This document shows positions 24,220 through 34,843 of a stretch of 64,000 bases of DNA, one piece after another. The stretch lies in contig CP070701.1 in the NCBI GenBank assembly GCA_020349885.1, positions 1,363,178 through 1,427,177 of the forward strand, in the 5' to 3' direction. Position 1 is the stretch's first letter; every line of letters starts with the position of its first letter. The stretch comes from Acidobacteriota bacterium. Lineage in GTDB: Bacteria > Acidobacteriota > G020349885. The notes beneath the pieces were generated by a model. The model was not told the origin of the DNA and ran no database searches. It saw nothing but the letters and a program-made list of their open reading frames with translations. The position numbers and the translations under genes were made by a program.

Positions 24220-24248
24220 ATTATAATACCTTAGCGCGTACCTGTCAA
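24220..24248 (-). promoter_or_regulatory. consensus sigma-70 promoter of dnaK
   Basis: On the minus strand, perfect TTGACA (24243-24248), 17-nt spacer, perfect TATAAT (24220-24225), about 50 nt before the dnaK ATG. This argues for strong housekeeping expression. Confidence 0.9.
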
Positions 24249-24437: not shown

Positions 24438-25250
24438 CTACCCCGCGCGCCGCGCAGACAAACCCTCCTCTATCTCCTTTGCAACGGCCTCGGCCACTTG
24501 GCGTTTTTTATCGCCGGCCCTGATAACGGGCCTGCCGACGACGATGAAGTCCGCTCCCTCTTGAATCGCCTTCCTGGGAGTTACGACCCGCTTTTGGTCG
24601 TCGTTTCGGACGAGAGTAATTTCGGGTCTCACCCCCGGCGTGACCACAACGATGTCCTTGCCGTCTCTTCCGCCCAGTCTTTTCTTGACGGCTCCGGCCT
24701 CCCGGCCCGAGCACACGATGCCGTCACACCCGGCCTTCTTGGCCTTTTCAGACACCTGAAGAACAAACTCCTGCACAGTGACGTCCACGTGGTAGAGTTC
24801 TTTCAGATCCTCTTCGCTAAGGCTCGTCAGGAAAGGGACGAGAAGAATCTTGGGCCGGGATTTTTTCAATTTGCTGATGGCTTCCTTGGCCGCCCGTACG
24901 GTCTGGTCGCTTCCGTGGTTCATCGTCATGAACTCAACGTCCAGATGTGCGGCTACGGTGGCGACCTGCGCGACGGTCTCCGGAATGTCCAGCGCCTTCA
25001 AGTCAAGGAAGATGTACTTTCCTTTTTTTCGAAGGCACTCGACGACCCGGCCGAACACGGGGAAAAGGCGAAGCCCTACCTTGTAGAACGAGACGGCGTC
25101 TCCCAGCTCGCTGATGATGGAAGCCGTCTCTTGGAATAGTTCGTCTTCGAAGTGCTTTCCGCTGCCGTACTCAAAGCCGGCGTCGCCGTAGGGCGGGTCC
25201 AGCGCGACAATGAGACGGTCCCTCGGGGAGGGCTCACCACCCTTCGTCAT
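24438..25250 (-). CDS. pyrF: orotidine 5'-phosphate decarboxylase
   Basis: Last step of UMP synthesis. The 270-residue protein has RLIVALDPP at the N-terminus, SFYKVGLRLF with the substrate Lys, the catalytic array DLKALDIPETV (DxKxxDI pattern), VTPGVRPE and a phosphate-binding VVGRPVIRAGD near the end. About 20 extra residues lie between the first strand and the Lys (YGDAGFEYGSGKHFEDE), longer than usual. ATG 25250 overlaps the gdhA stop as ATGA, so pyrF is translated from the gdhA message. Further in-frame codons upstream lie inside gdhA and are rejected as a start. Confidence 0.9.
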   Translation of the reverse strand: MTKGGEPSPRDRLIVALDPPYGDAGFEYGSGKHFEDELFQETASIISELGDAVSFYKVGLRLFPVFGRVVECLRKKGKYIFLDLKALDIPETVAQVATVAAHLDVEFMTMNHGSDQTVRAAKEAISKLKKSRPKILLVPFLTSLSEEDLKELYHVDVTVQEFVLQVSEKAKKAGCDGIVCSGREAGAVKKRLGGRDGKDIVVVTPGVRPEITLVRNDDQKRVVTPRKAIQEGADFIVVGRPVIRAGDKKRQVAEAVAKEIEEGLSARRAG

Positions 25251-26500
25251 GGATAGATCCCCCGGGTCTTTGTCGCCTCGGCGACGCGGCCGATAGCGAG
25301 GATGTAGGCCGCCGTGCGCATGTGCACCTTGTACTTCTTCGAGATTTCGTACACGTCGTGGAAGGAGCGGCGCATGATGTTGCGAAGCTCCGCGTTGACG
25401 CGCTCCTCGTCCCAGAAGAAGGCCTGCAGGTCCTGAACCCACTCGAAGTAGCTTACGGTGACGCCGCCCGCGTTGCAAAAGATATCGGGGATGAGGAAAA
25501 CCCCGTTCTTGTGAAGAATGTCGTCAGCCTCTGGGGTCGTGGGCCCGTTCGCAAGCTCCGCGACAACCTTGGCGTTCACATCGGCGGCGTTGTTGCGCGT
25601 GATGGCGCCCTCGAGCGCGGCGGGAACGAGAAAATCGCACTCCAGCGAGAGGAGCTTTTCGTTTGAAATCTTTCTGGTATGGGGGAAGCCCACGACGGAG
25701 CCGGTTTTCTCCTTGTGCTTGATGACTTCCTTATAGGAAAGGCCCTTGGGATTGTGGATGCCGCCCTTCGAGTCGCTCACCGCGATAATCTTGAGGCCGT
25801 CCTTCTCGAGGAGTTTGTGGCAGATGGCGCCGGCGTTTCCGTAGCCCTGGATGACCGCTGTTGCTTTCTTGTAGGGTATCTTCAAAACCTTGGCCGCCTC
25901 GCGCATGGCATAGACGCCGCCGCGCGCCGTGGCCTCGCTCCGGCCCTCGGAGCCGCCCACGGAAAGCGGCTTCCCCGTCACCACCCCGAGCGTCGTCGCC
26001 CCCCGTCCCACGGAATACGTGTCCATAATCCACGCCATCGTCTGCGGGTTCGTGTACATATCGGGGGCGGGAATGTCGCGGTCGGGGCCGATGATGACGC
26101 TGATTTCGCTTGCAAAGCGGCGCGTCATGCGCTCGATCTCGCCCTGGGACATTTCCTTGGTGTTGCAGACGACGCCGCCCTTCCCGCCGCCGAAGGGAAG
26201 ATTCACGACGGCGCACTTCCACGTCATCCATGCGGCCAAGGCCTTCACCTCGTCGAGCGTCACGCCCGGGTGATAGCGTATGCCGCCCTTCGCCGGGCCG
26301 CGCGCCACGTTGTGCTGAACGCGGTAGCCCTCAAAAACCTTGTAGGTGCCGTCGTCCATCCGCGTGGGTACGGAAACGACAAGCTGAAGTGCCGGGGCTC
26401 TCAGAATCCTGCACAAATCTTTAGGAAGGTCCAAATGCTTGACAGCGTTGTTGAACTGTTGAACGGCGATTTCAAACGGGTTGAGTGCTTTCTTGGTCAT
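25247..26500 (-). CDS. gdhA: glutamate dehydrogenase (Glu/Leu/Phe/Val dehydrogenase family)
   Basis: Interconverts glutamate and 2-oxoglutarate plus ammonia with NAD(P)H. The 417-residue length is typical of the hexameric small class. Key regions are GPAKGGIRYHPGVT, the PFGGGKGGVV segment with the catalytic Lys region, DIPAPDMYTNPQTMAWIMDTY, and the Rossmann GYGNAGAICHKLL. Cofactor preference is not clear. It lies 201 nt downstream of the FMN glutamate synthase operon but has its own promoter at 26573-26600, and it overlaps pyrF by 4 nt. A decayed copy of its 5' end lies upstream of nuoE. Confidence 0.95.
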   Translation of the reverse strand: MTKKALNPFEIAVQQFNNAVKHLDLPKDLCRILRAPALQLVVSVPTRMDDGTYKVFEGYRVQHNVARGPAKGGIRYHPGVTLDEVKALAAWMTWKCAVVNLPFGGGKGGVVCNTKEMSQGEIERMTRRFASEISVIIGPDRDIPAPDMYTNPQTMAWIMDTYSVGRGATTLGVVTGKPLSVGGSEGRSEATARGGVYAMREAAKVLKIPYKKATAVIQGYGNAGAICHKLLEKDGLKIIAVSDSKGGIHNPKGLSYKEVIKHKEKTGSVVGFPHTRKISNEKLLSLECDFLVPAALEGAITRNNAADVNAKVVAELANGPTTPEADDILHKNGVFLIPDIFCNAGGVTVSYFEWVQDLQAFFWDEERVNAELRNIMRRSFHDVYEISKKYKVHMRTAAYILAIGRVAEATKTRGIYP

Positions 26501-26572
26501 AAAAGGCTCCTTCCGTCAGTTAGGCTTGTCCGCCTCGTCAGAAAGAAAGCTTCGGGCGATTCACGAAAAGTT

Positions 26573-26600
26573 ATTGTAGCACCTTCGGAGGGAAAAGCAA
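26573..26600 (-). promoter_or_regulatory. sigma-70-like promoter of gdhA
   Basis: Minus strand TTGCTT (26595-26600), 16 nt, TACAAT (26573-26578). The core GAAGGTGCTACAATAA is shared exactly with the promoter upstream of nuoE. Confidence 0.65.
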
Positions 26601-26701
26601 CGGGGTGTGTAACCGACGGGGCCCCTGTTCTCGCTCGCACGAGTAAGTTAAATCGAGAAAAAGCCCTTTCGCGACAAAGGGTTAGGGGAAATTCTTAAAC
26701 C

Positions 26702-28321
26702 CTATTTCTTTTTCTTGCTTTTAGCGGCTCCGCGCTTCCGGAGGCCCAGGATTTTCTCAACTTCCTGCTTATCCAAGTCCATCACATACGGGATGCCGCT
26801 GATGTCGGACGCCTCGCGGGTAAGGGCGGCCAAGTCGTCCCGCGACAAGTACTTGAGCGCGAACTTGCGGCAGCCCGCCATAAGCTGGCGCATTCCTTGG
26901 GCCAAGCGCTCGTAGTAGGTATAAAGGCCGATGGCGCCCGTGGGCAGCGTTTCGTACTCCTTGTTGCCCAGTTCGTTACGAAGATGACTCGCGGTCACAA
27001 AAATGTCATCCTGGGTGCTTCCAAAACGCTCGACGTACACCGGAAGCTGGTGCTCCGCGATGGCCCGCCCGATGGTCTTGCCCACCATGGTGGCGGCGAT
27101 CGGTGATCGAGCCATGCCGACGAGCTTGACAAAGGGCGCCCCCATGGCAAGGCCCTTGAAGATTTGGTCCTCCAAGACGAACCCGCCGGCCACGGCGATG
27201 CTCGGCACATACCGACCATTGTCTGCAAGCCGCTTTGCGTACTGATAAAGAAGCGAGTGCAATTCCACCGTCGGCACTCCCCACTCGTTCATCATTCTCC
27301 ACGGACTCATGCCCGTTCCGCCCCCCGCACCGTCAACGGTGAGCAGGTCGATCTTGTACTTGGAGGCGAACATAACCGCTTGGGCCAGGGCGGCCGGCCG
27401 GTAGGCGCCCGTCTTGAGGAAGATGTACTTGGCGCCGGCCTTGCGAAGCTCCTCCGCCCGTTTGGCGAAGGCCTCCTCCGTGACCATGCCGACTCGCGAG
27501 TGCCGCTCGAACTCCTTGAAGTTGCCCTGCTCGAAAGCCCGGATCACATCGGGATCAGTCGGGTTCGGCAGAACCACGTAGCCGCGTTCGTAGAGCATTT
27601 GCGCCTTCTTCAGGTCGCGGACCTTGACCTCGCCCCCGATGTTCTTGGCCCCCTGCCCCCACTTCATCTCCACGCACTGGACCCCCAGCTCCTTGATGGC
27701 ATACTCGTGCACACTAAGGCGGGTGTCTTCCACGTTGGCCTGTACGATTATCGCCCCGTAACCGTCCCGCTGGTGGTCCGTAAAGAGCCTAATGCGGCGC
27801 TTCAGATCCACCGTGTCCACGACCTTACCGTTCTTGAACACGCTCTTGGGGTCCATGCCGGCCACGTTCTCGCCGATCGTCAATCCGGTACCGGCAATCG
27901 CCGAGCCGATGGCCAGCCCCTCCCAGTTGTTTTTGGCGATGTCCGTGGATCCAATCCCGGGAATAACCAAAGGATAGCGGAACTTCAGTCCGCCGTCATG
28001 GCCGAACCGCACCTCCAGATCGACGGCCGGAAAGACGGCCTTGTCGCTGTCCGCCTCGATACCCTCGGCGCCCACCACCCCGCCCATGATGTTGAAGTGG
28101 GAGTAGTCCACGGGATAGACCTTTTCCGCGGCGGTCGTGATCACACCGAAAGGCTGAGGGTAAATCACCTCGTGCCCGCGGTAGGCCGACTTGCCTATCT
28201 CGCACATGCCGATGCAGCCGTCGACGCATGTGACGCACATTCCCGAGATGGGAGTTATCGATCCTTCGGTCCTGTTCTTGGTTAGCGTTGCGGCAGAAGT
28301 GTTTACTCTCGAAAGCGACAT
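26702..28321 (-). CDS. FMN-binding glutamate synthase core (archaeal GltB2-type)
   Basis: A 539-residue protein corresponding to the FMN/synthase domain of glutamate synthase. The N-terminus has a Cys cluster (Cys29, 32, 36, 40) likely to bind Fe-S. The TIM-barrel core shows MKWGQGAKNIGGEVK, the GAGGGTGMSPW FMN/substrate loop and AVAGGFVLEDQIFKGLAMGA. The class II glutaminase domain is absent, so ammonia must come from solution or another protein. The tail is very Lys-rich. ATG 28321 was chosen because GGAG lies 8 nt upstream. It is the last gene of the nuoE-like operon, 20 nt after the HoxU-like gene. Confidence 0.85.
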   Translation of the reverse strand: MSLSRVNTSAATLTKNRTEGSITPISGMCVTCVDGCIGMCEIGKSAYRGHEVIYPQPFGVITTAAEKVYPVDYSHFNIMGGVVGAEGIEADSDKAVFPAVDLEVRFGHDGGLKFRYPLVIPGIGSTDIAKNNWEGLAIGSAIAGTGLTIGENVAGMDPKSVFKNGKVVDTVDLKRRIRLFTDHQRDGYGAIIVQANVEDTRLSVHEYAIKELGVQCVEMKWGQGAKNIGGEVKVRDLKKAQMLYERGYVVLPNPTDPDVIRAFEQGNFKEFERHSRVGMVTEEAFAKRAEELRKAGAKYIFLKTGAYRPAALAQAVMFASKYKIDLLTVDGAGGGTGMSPWRMMNEWGVPTVELHSLLYQYAKRLADNGRYVPSIAVAGGFVLEDQIFKGLAMGAPFVKLVGMARSPIAATMVGKTIGRAIAEHQLPVYVERFGSTQDDIFVTASHLRNELGNKEYETLPTGAIGLYTYYERLAQGMRQLMAGCRKFALKYLSRDDLAALTREASDISGIPYVMDLDKQEVEKILGLRKRGAAKSKKKK

Positions 28322-28341
28322 ACTTGTTTCTCCAATTTCCT

Positions 28342-29022
28342 TTACGTGTCTTTCTTGATTTCGCAAGCCACACAGGGATCCATGTAGCACATCATGTCAT
28401 CGAACCATGTCTTTTCCTCGCACGGCGGGCTGAGGTTCATGCAGCCGCCGCAAATACTCTTTTCGGGCTCCGTGTACGTGCAACGGAGCTGACAGGCCGG
28501 GCACACGTACATGCAGCCTCCACACAGCCTGCAGGCCTCCGACTTGATGTCGAAGGGCGTTCCAATACTGCGATTCTCGCCCCGGCCCCTGAACCCAATG
28601 GCTCTGGCCATCATCTGCTCCGCACACATCCGCACGCACAGCCCGCAAAGAATGCAGTCCTCGTACTCCTGCCGGAAGCGTTGTTTCTGGGCGCCGTGTT
28701 TGGACGCCAGATCCTGGATGATTTTCGACTGCGGGCACGAGGCCAGCAGAAGCTCCAGGACCATCCGCCGCGCCCGCAGCACCCGGGAAGACGCCGCCCG
28801 CACCTTGAGCCCCTCCTCGGCCAGGTAGGTGCAGGAGGAGACCAGCTTCGCCCCCGCGCCCTCCCCGATTTCCACCACGCAGAGCCTACAGGCGCCGTAG
28901 GGGGAAAGCCCGTCATCGTGGCAAAGGGTCGGTATAGGAAAGCCCAGGAATTTCGCTGCTTCGAGCAGAGTAGTCCCGTCCTCGACCGATACGGGCAGCC
29001 CGTTGATGGTTAAAGTAATCAC
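28342..29022 (-). CDS. HoxU/NuoG-N-like iron-sulfur subunit with extra C-terminal cysteines
   Basis: A 226-residue electron carrier. It has a plant-type 2Fe-2S domain (Cys34, 45, 48, 64) and two CxxCxxCxxxC ferredoxin motifs (Cys123-133 and Cys164-174). The His/Cys-cluster segment of NuoG is only loosely conserved. A C-terminal extension has eight more Cys (177, 181, 191, 194, 201, 212, 217, 220), beyond the usual HoxU layout and enough for further metal sites. The GTG start overlaps the upstream fusion gene's stop (GTGA). It probably hands electrons from the NuoF/GltD subunit to the FMN glutamate synthase. Confidence 0.82.
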   Translation of the reverse strand: MITLTINGLPVSVEDGTTLLEAAKFLGFPIPTLCHDDGLSPYGACRLCVVEIGEGAGAKLVSSCTYLAEEGLKVRAASSRVLRARRMVLELLLASCPQSKIIQDLASKHGAQKQRFRQEYEDCILCGLCVRMCAEQMMARAIGFRGRGENRSIGTPFDIKSEACRLCGGCMYVCPACQLRCTYTEPEKSICGGCMNLSPPCEEKTWFDDMMCYMDPCVACEIKKDT

Positions 29023-32000
29023 GCTTGTTTTACCTTAATTGCTTTTTTCTCAGTTTGAATGGATTCAGTAGGCAAAAAGTTCAGATCGCAACGCAAACAC
29101 CGCTTGGCTTCCAGCAGGGCATCCTTTTCACTCAAGCCTCTCTCTACTTCATCAAAGCTTTGTTGGCGCCTGTCCATAGGAATCACAGATTCCGTTGCGC
29201 GGGTTGCCTTGGCCAGCTCTTCTTCACTGAGCGGGATTGGCTCTATGTAACATGTTGGCCGACTTGCCGGGAGTGGCTGGTGCAGGTCTTCTCCATTCAG
29301 ATAGCGATCAATCATCACCGCGGCCTTCTTTCCGGTAGCGATAGCGTCAACGACTGTATTGGGGCCTGTAACAACATCACCACCCGCGAATACACCTGGC
29401 GTATTGGTCATTAGAGTTTCTGCGTCCGCATCTATGGAACCCCATGAACTCGTTTTTAGGTTCGAAGAGAGTTCTTCTGTATTTGGTGCTTCACTAATGG
29501 CGACAAGCAATGTGTCCAGTGAAACTGTGAATTCTGAACCGGGCACTGGCACAGGCTTTCGCCGACCGCTGGCATCGACCTCGCCAAGTTCATTTTTAAG
29601 GAATTCAACTCCGGTCAGTTTGCCTGCTTCTGTATGAACCTTGACCGGTGAAACCAAGCTTTCTATTTTGATGCCTTCTTCCAGGGCTCCTTCTATTTCA
29701 TCTGCAATGGCAGGCATTTCATTTCGGGTGCGGCGATAATAAATAGTTAATGATTCTACTCCTTCCTGGCGGAGGGCCACGCGAGCCGCATCCATTGCAG
29801 AATTTCCACCGCCAATTACTCCCACATGCCCTTTGGCCAGTTGTTTATTATCGACATTAAAGCCCTTGAGGAATTCCATTGATGAGTACACGCCCTCGAC
29901 ATCTTCGCCTTCAATACCGAGATTCTTACTCTTGTGTGCGCCAAGGGCGACAAATAAAGCCTTGAAACCCTCTTTCATCAAACCATCAACGGTTATATTT
30001 TGGCCCAGCGTGCTATTACACTTTACAGTGATATTTTCGTTAAGAAGTGAATCGATTTCCTTTTGCAGCATTTCCCTGGGAAGTCGGTAAGAGGGTATCC
30101 CTAAATGCAACATGCCACCCAACTCAGTAGCGGACTCAAAGAGTGTCACTTGATATCCCAGCAGAGAAAGATCATGAGCCGCCGTGATACCAGCGGGCCC
30201 TGCGCCGATTACAGCAACTCTGGGCATACCTTTTTTTGTCTTTATTTCTGGTCTGAATACTGAAGGATCGACGTTATCGGTGACGAAACGTTTTAGACTC
30301 CGGATAGCAATAGGCTGCTGTCCACCCACACCTGCCTGGCAAGTGCTTTCGCAAGGATGATGGCATACGCGCGCGCATACCGAAGGAAAGGGATTGGATC
30401 GACGGATTACCCTGTACGCATCCTCATATTCTCCTCTCTGGATATGGGCGACATAGCGCCAGACCTCAGTGCCCAAGGGACAAGATGACTGGCAGCGCAC
30501 ACCCACCAATTCGGAGCAAACTTTGGCGGGGCATTTTTTGTGCACAATGTGCTGTTCATATTCGTTGTAGAAATAGCGTAAAGCACTCAGAACTGGATTC
30601 GAAGCAGTTTGGCCCAGGGCACACATCGTGGTATCCTTCACGACCTCCGCCAACTCCTTGAGCAGGTCGAGTTGCTCCAGCGTCCCTCGGCCTGTGGATA
30701 TGTCATCGAGAATTTCGTACATCCGCTGCGTGCCCTTGCGGCAGGTAAAACACTTGCCGCAGGATTCTTCTTTCAGGAATTTCATGAAGTACTTGGCGAC
30801 ATCCACCATGCAGGTGTCCTCATCCATCACGATCATGCCGCCGGACCCCATGATGGATCCGACTTTGCTCAAGCTGTCATAGTCGATGGACAAATCAAAC
30901 ATGGATGAAGGAATACAGCCGCCCGAAGGTCCTCCAGTTTGGACTGCTTTAATTTTTTTCCCGCCAGGTGCACCACCGCCAATGTCATAAACCATTTCCC
31001 TGAGAGTCGTGCCCATTGGCACTTCCACCAAGCCAGTGTTATTGATTTTACCCACCAAGGAAAAAATCTTGGTTCCGGTATTTCCGGGGACTCCGACCTT
31101 TGCATATTCCTCGCCACCTTTGCTTATGATGACTGGAATATTGGCCAGTGTTTCGACGTTGTTGATTACCGTAGGTTTGCCGTCAATGCCCTTCTGTATG
31201 GGGAATGGCGGCCTTTGGCGCGGCTCGCCCATTTTCCCTTCAATGGACTTCATGAGAGCAGTCTCTTCCCCGCATACGAAGGCTCCAGCCCCCTGGACAA
31301 TTTCAATATCGAAATTGATATCGGTTCCCAAAATCCCATCACCCAGAATCCCCATTTTCCTTGCCTGCAGAATCGCAATAAGCGCATGCTTAATCGCAAG
31401 GGGATATTCACTACGCACATAGATGATACCCCGAGAGGCACCGATGGCAATCCCGGCAATAAGCATGCCTTCGATAATGGAATGCGGATTGCCTTCCAGG
31501 AGACTTCGATCCATATATGCGCCGGGATCACCCTCGTCAGCGTTACAGACGATAAACTTCTGAATCCCTTCTTTGCCGGAACGCCTGGCAAGTTCCCACT
31601 TCGTACCGGTAGGAAAACCTGCTCCACCGCGTCCCCTGAGACCGGAAAGCTTAACCTCTTTAATAATCCATTCGGGATCAGGGTTGTTTAATACTTTTTC
31701 TAGGGCGTCATACCCATTCGCCTTGATGTAATCTCGGATACGGATTGGATCAAGTTGCTGATTCTTTCCTAAGATGGTACGGGTTTGCTTCCGGAAGAAA
31801 GGAATATGATCTTGAGTATCGTGGCGTTTCTGATCGGCAGGTTCCCTGTAAAGCAGGCCCTCAACGATTTCCCCTTTTAAAGCAGCATCAATGATCCTGG
31901 GAACATCGTCTGTTTTCAATTTTGGATATAGTTGTCCTCCAGGTTCAACCAGAATGAACGGGTCCATTTCACAAAATCCCAGACACCCGGTAATTCGCAG

Positions 32001-32186
32001 TGATATTTTTTCGTGAAGCTTGCGTTCGAGTATTTGGCGCTTAAGGACCCGCATGATATCGTTTGAGCCGCTGGCCTGACCACCTGTGCCAGCGCAAAGA
32101 ATTAAAGTGGGTCTATCCGGGCTGTATTTATCGAGTAGAACCCTTCGATATGCGTGAAATTCTTCTAATGAACCCATATTTCGCAT
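29019..32186 (-). CDS. NuoF-like NADH dehydrogenase fused to GltD-like FAD/NADPH oxidoreductase
   Basis: A 1055-residue fusion. Residues 1-110 are a thioredoxin-like 2Fe-2S domain with Cys31, 68 and 72, but Gly36 where a fourth Cys is usual. Residues 115-545 are NuoF: GRGGAGFPTGTKW (184-196) for NADH/FMN and a 4Fe-4S site (Cys476, 479, 482, 522). Residues 550-1055 are GltD/NfnB-like: Cys552, 557, 565, 569 and 604, 608, 612, 616, FAD GAGPAG (661-666), NAD(P)H IGGGNSAMDA (791-800) and GVFAGGDVVTG. Two nucleotide sites on one chain suit electron bifurcation or transhydrogenation, which is an inference. The gene is much more AT-rich than its neighbours. Confidence 0.9.
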   Translation of the reverse strand: MRNMGSLEEFHAYRRVLLDKYSPDRPTLILCAGTGGQASGSNDIMRVLKRQILERKLHEKISLRITGCLGFCEMDPFILVEPGGQLYPKLKTDDVPRIIDAALKGEIVEGLLYREPADQKRHDTQDHIPFFRKQTRTILGKNQQLDPIRIRDYIKANGYDALEKVLNNPDPEWIIKEVKLSGLRGRGGAGFPTGTKWELARRSGKEGIQKFIVCNADEGDPGAYMDRSLLEGNPHSIIEGMLIAGIAIGASRGIIYVRSEYPLAIKHALIAILQARKMGILGDGILGTDINFDIEIVQGAGAFVCGEETALMKSIEGKMGEPRQRPPFPIQKGIDGKPTVINNVETLANIPVIISKGGEEYAKVGVPGNTGTKIFSLVGKINNTGLVEVPMGTTLREMVYDIGGGAPGGKKIKAVQTGGPSGGCIPSSMFDLSIDYDSLSKVGSIMGSGGMIVMDEDTCMVDVAKYFMKFLKEESCGKCFTCRKGTQRMYEILDDISTGRGTLEQLDLLKELAEVVKDTTMCALGQTASNPVLSALRYFYNEYEQHIVHKKCPAKVCSELVGVRCQSSCPLGTEVWRYVAHIQRGEYEDAYRVIRRSNPFPSVCARVCHHPCESTCQAGVGGQQPIAIRSLKRFVTDNVDPSVFRPEIKTKKGMPRVAVIGAGPAGITAAHDLSLLGYQVTLFESATELGGMLHLGIPSYRLPREMLQKEIDSLLNENITVKCNSTLGQNITVDGLMKEGFKALFVALGAHKSKNLGIEGEDVEGVYSSMEFLKGFNVDNKQLAKGHVGVIGGGNSAMDAARVALRQEGVESLTIYYRRTRNEMPAIADEIEGALEEGIKIESLVSPVKVHTEAGKLTGVEFLKNELGEVDASGRRKPVPVPGSEFTVSLDTLLVAISEAPNTEELSSNLKTSSWGSIDADAETLMTNTPGVFAGGDVVTGPNTVVDAIATGKKAAVMIDRYLNGEDLHQPLPASRPTCYIEPIPLSEEELAKATRATESVIPMDRRQQSFDEVERGLSEKDALLEAKRCLRCDLNFLPTESIQTEKKAIKVKQA

Positions 32187-32253
32187 CCAGGTATTCCTCT
32201 TTTCTATAAGGGAAAAACTGACTATCTTTCAGCTTGACGATCAAGCAGAAGTA

Positions 32254-33129
32254 TCACCCCAAATCTAACAAGTGGCCTTTGCAGCCATTACGGGGACATA
32301 TCTGCACCACACCGCCACTTCGTACAATCATAGGGACCATACTAACATTGCATTCTGGGCAAGGCCCAGTTCCAATCAGTTCGGTATGACAGTGGGGGCA
32401 GAAAAAATTCAGCACTTCACCTTCCGGTATTTCATGCTTTCCTTCTACATTATGACTTCCGTATAATGATGAGAAACTTAATGAAAAATGCTTGGTGTCA
32501 AATGAAACAGTTACTCTGATGGAAGGGTAACCATCAACAGGGCGGCTCGGGTCCATCAGGCTCCGATTACAGCGCGGGCAACTCACATCGATTGGAAAGA
32601 TTCGTTCATCTCCCTCGATTTCGACTTTGTCAAGTCCGTCACGCGCCTTCCCAATAATTTCAGAAACCCGGCTTCTGTTCACGTGGGAAAAATAATGTCC
32701 ATCTACCACCACTACAGGCCCGAGCGCGCACGCGCCCAGACAGTTCACGGTTTCCAGCGTGAACTCGTTGTCCGAGGAAGTTTGACCGGCCTTGACCTTT
32801 AGCTGACGCTCGAACTCCTCGGAAATTCCCGGGGCCCCCCTCACATGGCACGCCGTGCCGAGGCAAACGGATAGGATGTGCCGTCCTTTGGGGGTCAGGC
32901 TGAAGGATTTGTAAAAGGTGGCGACCCCGTAGATGTCGACCAGAGAGCGGCCCGTCTCCTCGGCAAGTTCCTTCAGAGCCTCGGCGGGCAAATAGTTGTA
33001 TTTCGATTGAATGTCCTGGAGAACGGCGATGAGGCTGCCGCGGCTTCCCCTGTGTTTTTTGACAATCTCCTCCACCATCCCCTCCGGTATCTGCTCTTGT
33101 CCAGAGGTATCAAGTGTACTTGTCGCCAT
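32254..33129 (-). CDS. NuoE-like 2Fe-2S subunit with C-terminal zinc-ribbon extension
   Basis: A 291-residue protein. Residues 15-170 are NuoE/HndA-like: helical YNYLPAEALKELAEETG, then thioredoxin-fold cluster ligands Cys89, Cys94, Cys130 and Cys134. The extra 120 residues contain CPRC (184-187), CPHC (244-247), CPEC (257-260) and a CPRNGC pattern (278-283), typical of zinc ribbons and not part of standard NuoE, which is about 160-180 residues. It is the first gene of the operon and pairs with the NuoF domain as NADH input module. Base composition shifts within the gene near 32650-32720, AT-rich towards its 3' end. Confidence 0.88.
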   Translation of the reverse strand: MATSTLDTSGQEQIPEGMVEEIVKKHRGSRGSLIAVLQDIQSKYNYLPAEALKELAEETGRSLVDIYGVATFYKSFSLTPKGRHILSVCLGTACHVRGAPGISEEFERQLKVKAGQTSSDNEFTLETVNCLGACALGPVVVVDGHYFSHVNRSRVSEIIGKARDGLDKVEIEGDERIFPIDVSCPRCNRSLMDPSRPVDGYPSIRVTVSFDTKHFSLSFSSLYGSHNVEGKHEIPEGEVLNFFCPHCHTELIGTGPCPECNVSMVPMIVRSGGVVQICPRNGCKGHLLDLG

Positions 33130-33261
33130 CGCGGACCTCTCGTGCTCTCCGCACTACCAGACGACTCCCTCCGGTTTCGGGTATGTGCAGGTTAATAGCC
33201 TTTCGCTGTCGGCGTACAGCCATCCGCACGCCTGCTAACCATCCCCTTTTAAGGATAAGGA

Positions 33262-33410
33262 ACGCAACGTTGTCGAACTGCCGAACAGCGGCTTCAAACG
33301 GGCTATGTGAGCTTCTTGTTATAAACAGCTCCTACTGTCAGCGTAACTCGTTAGCCTCAGCGGTAAGGAGGCTCTAGATGCTTCTTAAAAATTATTGTAG
33401 CACCTTCAGA
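33262..33410 (-). pseudogene. decayed copy of the gdhA promoter, leader and 5' end
   Basis: The minus-strand sequence aligns with 26435-26590, which is gdhA codons 1 to about 22, its Shine-Dalgarno and leader, and the promoter core. From 33322 it reads ATA ACA AGA AGC in place of the gdhA ATG ACC AAG AAA, then SPFEAAVRQFDNV against NPFEIAVQQFNNA. The start codon is lost and the frame soon leaves the similarity, so it cannot make a protein. Its surviving promoter now sits upstream of nuoE. Confidence 0.8.
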
Positions 33411-33421
33411 AAAAAAATCAA
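33394..33421 (-). promoter_or_regulatory. sigma-70-like promoter of the nuoE operon
   Basis: Minus strand TTGATT (33416-33421), 16 nt, TACAAT (33394-33399). It has the same spacing and core as the gdhA promoter and lies about 265 nt before the nuoE ATG. Confidence 0.6.
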
Positions 33422-33784
33422 GGGGGGAATTGCAACAAAAACCGCACTCTCCTGCTTCCGCAACCCGAAATTGCCCGACTCCCGAACCGGATCGCGGTCC
33501 TCGTGGCCACCCGGGGGGATTCACGGCTGCGCAGGCTGTGGCGGCGGGCTCATCCGCCCCGTTGTTCCACGTGGAACAATTGCACCAAGGGGCCGAAGTG
33601 CCTCCGTGAACCCTTCGGTGAAGCTTGGGTCGGCGGCGGACTGAGGCTGCGGAAGCGGGAAAGAGGGGTGGATTCGTTCGAAAATCCACCTTATTCAGGG
33701 TTTTTGCCCCGTTTTTTGGGTTTTTCCCTTACCCTCAATTGATACGCCATCCCCTTCCCCCCCCTTTCCATCGGGACGCTGCCG
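33422..33784. other. intergenic region between nuoE promoter and cyclase gene
   Basis: 363 nt with no convincing gene: the short open frames here have no recognisable motif or ribosome site. It contains the parS-like palindrome at 33563-33578. Otherwise I see GC-rich sequence and, near 33690-33740, runs of T and C. Confidence 0.5.
33563..33578. other. parS-like centromere site
   Basis: TGTTCCACGTGGAACA is a perfect 16-bp palindrome, 18 bp with the flanking T/A, matching the bacterial ParB-binding consensus TGTTNCACGTGAAACA at all but one position and fully symmetric. It is intergenic and about 14.5 kb from dnaA, where parS sites usually cluster. No parA or parB is in this window. Confidence 0.85.
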
Positions 33785-34843
33785 CTACCTCCCGCGGTGC
33801 TTAAAAAGCTTCAACGCCTGCACTTTGCCCTTCAACTTAATCTCTCCCACCGAGGTGAACTCAGAGGGATCCTTGAGGCGGGAAAACGTGGATTCGGAAA
33901 TATACAACGAGCCGGTCTCCGCCCTGGCCTCTATGCGGGAGGCGGTGTTGACCACGTCCCCGATCACGGTCAGGTCTTTCCTGTCGGCGGTTCCTATATC
34001 TCCCTGGATAACGGGGCCGCTGTTTATCCCGACGCGGACGCCTATCGCGTCCTCGCTTTGCCGGAGCCGTCTCTCGTTAAGCTCGGGCAGGTACTGAAAC
34101 AGGATTTTCGAGGCTGCGCGGACGGCGTCGTTCGCGTCCAGGAACATGGCCATCACCGCGTCGCCTATGAACTTGTCTATGTCGCCCTGGCAGTCCTTGA
34201 TGACGCCGCTGCATACCTCGAAGAGCTCGTTCAACATACTAACGACCCGCTCAGGAGAATATTTTTCGGAATAATTGGTAAAGCCCACTACGTCCAGGAA
34301 CATTATGGTCAGATCAACCTTGCGGGAGGTGTCCGCGGCTCCAACCTGAACCTTGGACATTATTTCTTCAAAGGTGGTGGTGGAAACGTACTTCTTGATA
34401 ATGCCGCTGAACTTCTCCTGAAGAATACGATGCTCCTCTTCCTGGGAGATGTCCCTGAACACCTCTATCGCGGCGATTATCTCATTCTTGAGGTTCCTTA
34501 TGGGATATATGTGCGTCTTTACCGGAAATCTCCTCCCCGATTTGTGCAAAGTATATATCTTCACCTTGACGTGCTCGCCCGTCGCGAGCGTCCTCTCCAA
34601 AGGGCACCCGTGAATACAGAGCAGGGTGCCCTCGTCGTCGATATGGTTCAAGATGTTATCCGAGCATTTTCTGCCAAAGACCTCGTCATTGGAATACCCG
34701 GTGATCTCGCGCGCGCCCGTGTTCCAGAAAACAATAGTTTTAGTCTTGTCGACAACATACACGCCGTCAAAGATGTTGTTGAGCAGCGACGATAAGATCG
34801 TGCTCCTGTCACCCAGCCGTTCAACGGTGATATCTTCGCGCAT
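33785..34843 (-). CDS. PAS-domain class III adenylate/guanylate cyclase
   Basis: A 352-residue signalling enzyme. An N-terminal PAS domain (about 15-135: IFDGVYVVDKTKTIVFWN, ALEVFRDIS-like end) is followed by a class III cyclase domain (about 172-350). Metal-binding Asp residues are visible in IMFLDVVGFTNYSE and KFIGDAVMAMF, and a nucleotide-binding segment in GDVVNTASRIEARA. ATP or GTP preference cannot be judged safely. No membrane segment is present, so it is a cytoplasmic sensor. It stands alone, transcribed away from the parS-like site region. Confidence 0.9.
   Translation of the reverse strand: MREDITVERLGDRSTILSSLLNNIFDGVYVVDKTKTIVFWNTGAREITGYSNDEVFGRKCSDNILNHIDDEGTLLCIHGCPLERTLATGEHVKVKIYTLHKSGRRFPVKTHIYPIRNLKNEIIAAIEVFRDISQEEEHRILQEKFSGIIKKYVSTTTFEEIMSKVQVGAADTSRKVDLTIMFLDVVGFTNYSEKYSPERVVSMLNELFEVCSGVIKDCQGDIDKFIGDAVMAMFLDANDAVRAASKILFQYLPELNERRLRQSEDAIGVRVGINSGPVIQGDIGTADRKDLTVIGDVVNTASRIEARAETGSLYISESTFSRLKDPSEFTSVGEIKLKGKVQALKLFKHRGR

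Follow-up and report, generated by a model that had tools for sequence, protein, structure and literature searches.

Within the window, by which we mean the whole stretch of 64,000 nucleotides of an Acidobacteriota genome analysed here, a decayed copy of the promoter, leader and first codons of the glutamate dehydrogenase gene gdhA stands before a four-gene operon of nuoE, nuoF-gltD, ferredoxin and gltB2 genes. We consider it fairly probable that this gdhA segment was duplicated to its place before the operon, that its coding part decayed, and that its promoter was kept and is, by prediction, used there. The locus would then be a natural case in which the copied 5' end of a neighbouring gene apparently supplies an operon with its promoter, while the start of that gene stays behind as a fossil. 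It lets one ask directly if co-regulation with the donor gene is the reason for which copied promoters are retained. The features are collected in Table 1.

Table 1. Features of the region between gdhA and the segment upstream of nuoE.
Feature	Position	Strand	Basis
Decayed copy of gdhA promoter, leader and first ~20 codons	33265..33426	-	70% identity, shuffles, zone identities
Promoter-like pair TTGATT-16-TACAAT, TG before -10; presumed nuoE operon promoter	33394..33421	-	scan, alignment
ATA at gdhA-start position	33320..33322	-	alignment and frame reading
Leader between remnant and nuoE	33130..33261	-	no similarity to gdhA or elsewhere in the window
nuoE-like gene, C-terminal zinc ribbon	32254..33129	-	PF01257 (7.5e-47), PF13453
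nuoF-gltD fusion: NADH-binding NuoF part and GltD-like NAD(P) oxidoreductase part	29019..32186	-	domain profiles
HoxU/NuoG-N-like ferredoxin subunit	28342..29022	-	PF13510, PF12838; NF005745 below cut-off
gltB2-like gene: FMN-domain part of glutamate synthase only	26702..28390	-	PF01645
Possible intrinsic terminator after gltB2: CCCTTTGTCGCGAAAGGG then CTTTTTC	26664..26681	-	scan match
gdhA promoter-like pair TTGCTT-16-TACAAT, TG before -10	26572..26599	-	sequence, alignment with copy
gdhA, intact archaeal-type glutamate dehydrogenase	25247..26500	-	PF00208, PF02812

Local alignment of minus-strand positions 33426-33265 with 26605-26443 gave 119 identities in 166 columns, 7 of them gap columns. 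Its score of 123 lies far above those of dinucleotide shuffles (20.2 +/- 2.8, maximum 40, n=2000) and demonstrates that the two segments are homologous. Thus, the pairwise alignment that the initial annotation had proposed as a check bore out its reading of a duplicated gdhA promoter, leader and gene start, with the edges corrected to the positions just given. The core, the equal 16-nt promoter spacing, the peptides NPFEIAVQQFNNA and SPFEAAVRQFDNV and the change of the start ATG to ATA were all found as it had described them. Searched against the single-contig genome of 2.4 Mb, the gdhA 5' segment matched only itself and the copy (E = 9.3e-12, 70% identity over 163 bases); no comparable third match was found genome-wide, the next best having E = 0.2. 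Likewise, the exact string GAAGGTGCTACAATAA occurs twice in the genome, once in gdhA and once in the copy. The copy reaches from the promoter to about codon 20 of gdhA and lies in direct orientation relative to it, so that alignment and orientation both agree with the earlier statement that direct copies bracket the operon. The similarity breaks off sharply at both edges: the following 60-130 bases and the preceding 75 bases are no more alike than shuffles (P about 0.9 or more), and no additional gdhA sequence turned up when the surroundings of the remnant were searched. Other short repeats between 24 and 36 kb look like chance matches within coding sequence.

Identity differs by zone. It is 82% in the stretch from -35 to -10, with a 16-base core at 100%, 62% in the leader, 75% in the Shine-Dalgarno part, 86% in codons 1-8 outside the gaps and 80% in codons 9-20. 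Between the lost start codon and codon 7 the copy has compensating 1-base gaps. Transitions account for 28 of the 40 substitutions, as expected of decayed homologous DNA. From codon 7 on, the differences at codon positions 1, 2 and 3 number 2, 4 and 2; they lack the third-position excess that selection on a pair of genes would leave, which together with the transitions indicates a decayed gene start. The segment can accordingly be classed as a gdhA pseudogene fragment: it is homologous to gdhA, its start is lost and its similarity ends near codon 20. If translation were to begin at the ATA, a frame of 70 codons would cross the nuoE start out of frame and continue to 33110. Loss of the ATG may therefore have helped the translation of nuoE.

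At the residue level, the copy and the live gdhA have V13 and N18 in common. Of 110 other GdhA proteins, 109 have one of Q, L, M, K, R, S, A, E or I at position 13, so that V13 is absent from at least these 109, and in the same set N at position 18 falls outside the nine commonest residues. Position 17 is D in the copy, as in 85 of the 110 other proteins, and the N of the live gdhA is derived. Since V13 and N18 are rare yet shared and D17 is kept in the copy, the copy most likely split from the gdhA of this lineage once V13 and N18 had arisen but while D17 was still unchanged, and a distant donor is unlikely. Judged by a divergence of about 30%, the event is an old one.

The same residues bear on the idea that the fragment arrived together with the nuoE-nuoF-gltD half from a closely related organism, as the donor's own gdhA start. 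GC3 is 0.57 in nuoE and 0.49 in nuoF-gltD, against a window median of 0.72, whereas the ferredoxin and gltB2 genes have a host-like 0.78; in the compared relatives, the four operon genes are much more alike in GC3 within each genome. This split gives the operon (nuoE and nuoF-gltD, 29019-33129, on the one side) a mosaic look, with a first half that is possibly foreign. In trees, NuoF groups differently from GltB2, at weak support, which would also suit such a transfer. However, with the rare V13 and N18 common to the copy and the host gdhA, the donor would have to come from the same narrow lineage, and we regard this origin as quite improbable.

In the minus-strand interval 33130-33785 the promoter scan found a single sigma-70-like site, the TTGATT-16-TACAAT of the copy, within a region in which promoter-like sites occur in near chance number. 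Because this -35/-10 pair is preserved and no other such site was found before nuoE, takeover by the operon is likely, and the operon is predicted to be transcribed from the copied promoter. The presumed leader lengths would be about 258 nt for the operon and about 65 nt for gdhA. A run as long as the identical core arises with P = 0.16 when the same mismatches are placed at random, so that the core alone does not demonstrate selection on the promoter. Nor was the promoter uniquely spared, as the dead coding part (about 80-86%) is more identical than the leader. The possible terminator (26681-26664) precedes the gdhA promoter; terminator-like matches occur in near chance number and its fold is weak. 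Immediately ahead of dnaK, at 24220-24248 on the minus strand, stands TTGACA-17-TATAAT, which matches the promoter consensus perfectly.

The promoter and Shine-Dalgarno-like parts kept in both segments could also mean that each works as a regulatory leader (operator, attenuator or riboswitch) and that their likeness is maintained by function. Against this, the leader is the least conserved zone, and the folds of the two leaders, with z-scores of -0.48 and -0.09, are no better than those of shuffles, so that a shared structured RNA is not indicated. The Rfam families found in the window are tmRNA and one tRNA only. A functional cause of the likeness is therefore, in our judgement, very improbable.

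To place the arrangement among relatives, 60 and then 396 same-phylum genomes, plus 80 loci, were surveyed, the nearest relatives being of the same phylum. Strong GltB2 relatives were found in about 45 of the 396 genomes of this phylum sample, and same-phylum relatives of gltB2 are 76-79% identical. The order nuoE-nuoF(-gltD)-ferredoxin-gltB2 recurs in most neighbourhoods that reach far enough (20 were fetched). A gdhA start fragment directly before nuoE was found in none of 17 operon loci, all of them compared at the level of the phylum. The operon is common in the phylum, where it normally lies away from gdhA and has no such fragment. Two loci (L188 and L189) have a distant dehydrogenase relative nearby, at about 30% identity.

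These neighbourhoods allow three routes to the present locus, namely promoter copying, insertion of the operon at gdhA and collapse of a tandem gdhA pair. The initial annotation had favoured insertion or tandem duplication at gdhA, after which the operon took over the old gdhA promoter. On an insertion route, in which a circular or tandemly duplicated piece might have recombined, the upstream copy would be the original gdhA promoter with the broken 5' end of a first gdhA, and the whole gdhA would lie downstream. The direct repeats that bracket the operon, the low GC3 of nuoE and nuoF-gltD as a possible foreign mark, and the position of the operon away from gdhA in most relatives fit such an event. 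On the other hand, the host-like GC3 of the ferredoxin and gltB2 genes argues against an operon that came as one foreign piece, the block between the copies consists of the four operon genes only, with no transposase or integrase recognised in it, and no gdhA body adjoins nuoE. Insertion is thus not specifically supported, and we hold it to be somewhat unlikely. An operon that lay upstream of gdhA beforehand and then received the copied promoter fits equally well. The wording 'old gdhA promoter' presupposes that the upstream copy is the original; either copy may hold the original place.

In the case of a former tandem pair, the first gdhA would have lost its body and left its 5' end before the operon. 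Neighbouring gdhA genes do occur in other organisms surveyed, and in the same phylum L197 has a tandem gdhA pair about 5 kb upstream of nuoE, the only gdhA of this type nearby among the 20 neighbourhoods. Here, however, the interval from remnant to nuoE holds no further detectable gdhA and gdhA is single in the genome, which makes a collapsed pair unlikely.

Promoter copying is preferred because nuoE has no gdhA body beside it and the block has no mobile gene. In this preferred reading, a gdhA segment reaching from just before the -35 box to about codon 20 was duplicated in this lineage and now lies in direct orientation before the nuoE / nuoF-gltD / ferredoxin / gltB2 operon. The useless coding part decayed through loss of the start codon and small gaps while the promoter remained. 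On the simplest model, P-nuoE-nuoF-gltD-fd-gltB2 and P-gdhA, each behind its own copy of one promoter, would be transcribed in parallel. A segmental or tandem duplication may have joined the gdhA promoter to the operon, possibly with later loss of a redundant copy. The activity of the copied promoter, the regulation shared by both units and this route are what we infer from the two segments.

As to the products, the nuoF-gltD fusion has the domains PF01512, PF10589, PF14691 and PF07992 and matches TIGR01959 and NF009410, both below their curated cut-offs; the best NCBIfam match of gdhA, NF040817, is below cut-off as well. Profile searches found neither the glutamine amidotransferase domain (PF00310) nor the GXGXG domain (PF01493) anywhere in the genome, with positive controls in 12 and 13 of 14 genomes. 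With the FMN domain of glutamate synthase (GOGAT) present and these two absent, the GltB2-NuoEF-GltD set does not qualify as a glutamate synthase of the classical, glutamine-dependent type.

The more novel side of the locus may be a partnership of GdhA with this operon so unlike classical glutamate synthase. Twin promoters could hold GdhA and a NuoEF-GltD-GltB2 complex lacking the amidotransferase in fixed co-expression, a reading that we put forward as doubtful. With the same doubt, GdhA and the complex together might form an ammonium or glutamate redox route, and the duplication would have fixed the partnership for that reason. The proposal starts from a genome without classical glutamate synthase, and is also hinted at by four loci (L129, L136, L140 and L141) of unrelated bacteria and an archaeal record. 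There, gdhA adjoins gltB2-like or nuoEF-like genes, so the neighbourhood is not unique, and these cases hint that a functional link recurs.

Multi-subunit NAD(H)/ferredoxin enzymes of the NuoEF type include the proposed Bfu family (PMC9304861). Like them, the operon encodes NuoE-, NuoF- and NuoG-N/HoxU-like subunits together, a likeness drawn from their domains. What sets it apart is the fusion of NuoF to a GltD-like part, with a GltB2 FMN-domain protein as the partner; glutamate and Glt go unmentioned in the main text of PMC9304861.

Tandem duplication is an established way for genes to capture a promoter, described in Salmonella for histidine genes and in E. coli for horizontally transferred genes and the citrate transporter gene (PMC11111574). 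As in those cases, a neighbour's promoter and 5' part were copied before genes able to use them, and the gene to which the promoter first belonged may leave its truncated 5' end at the junction. Here, a direct copy of a resident promoter and gene 5' end precedes the operon, and V13 and N18, which are shared, and the ancestral D17 mark it as derived from a resident gene of the same lineage. The locus therefore probably adds a new example of promoter capture by segmental duplication, a rearrangement that is known although uncommon. It differs from the published cases in its age, with about 30% divergence, in a promoter use that is predicted from sequence, and in the captured unit, a redox operon of four genes that members of the phylum normally have.
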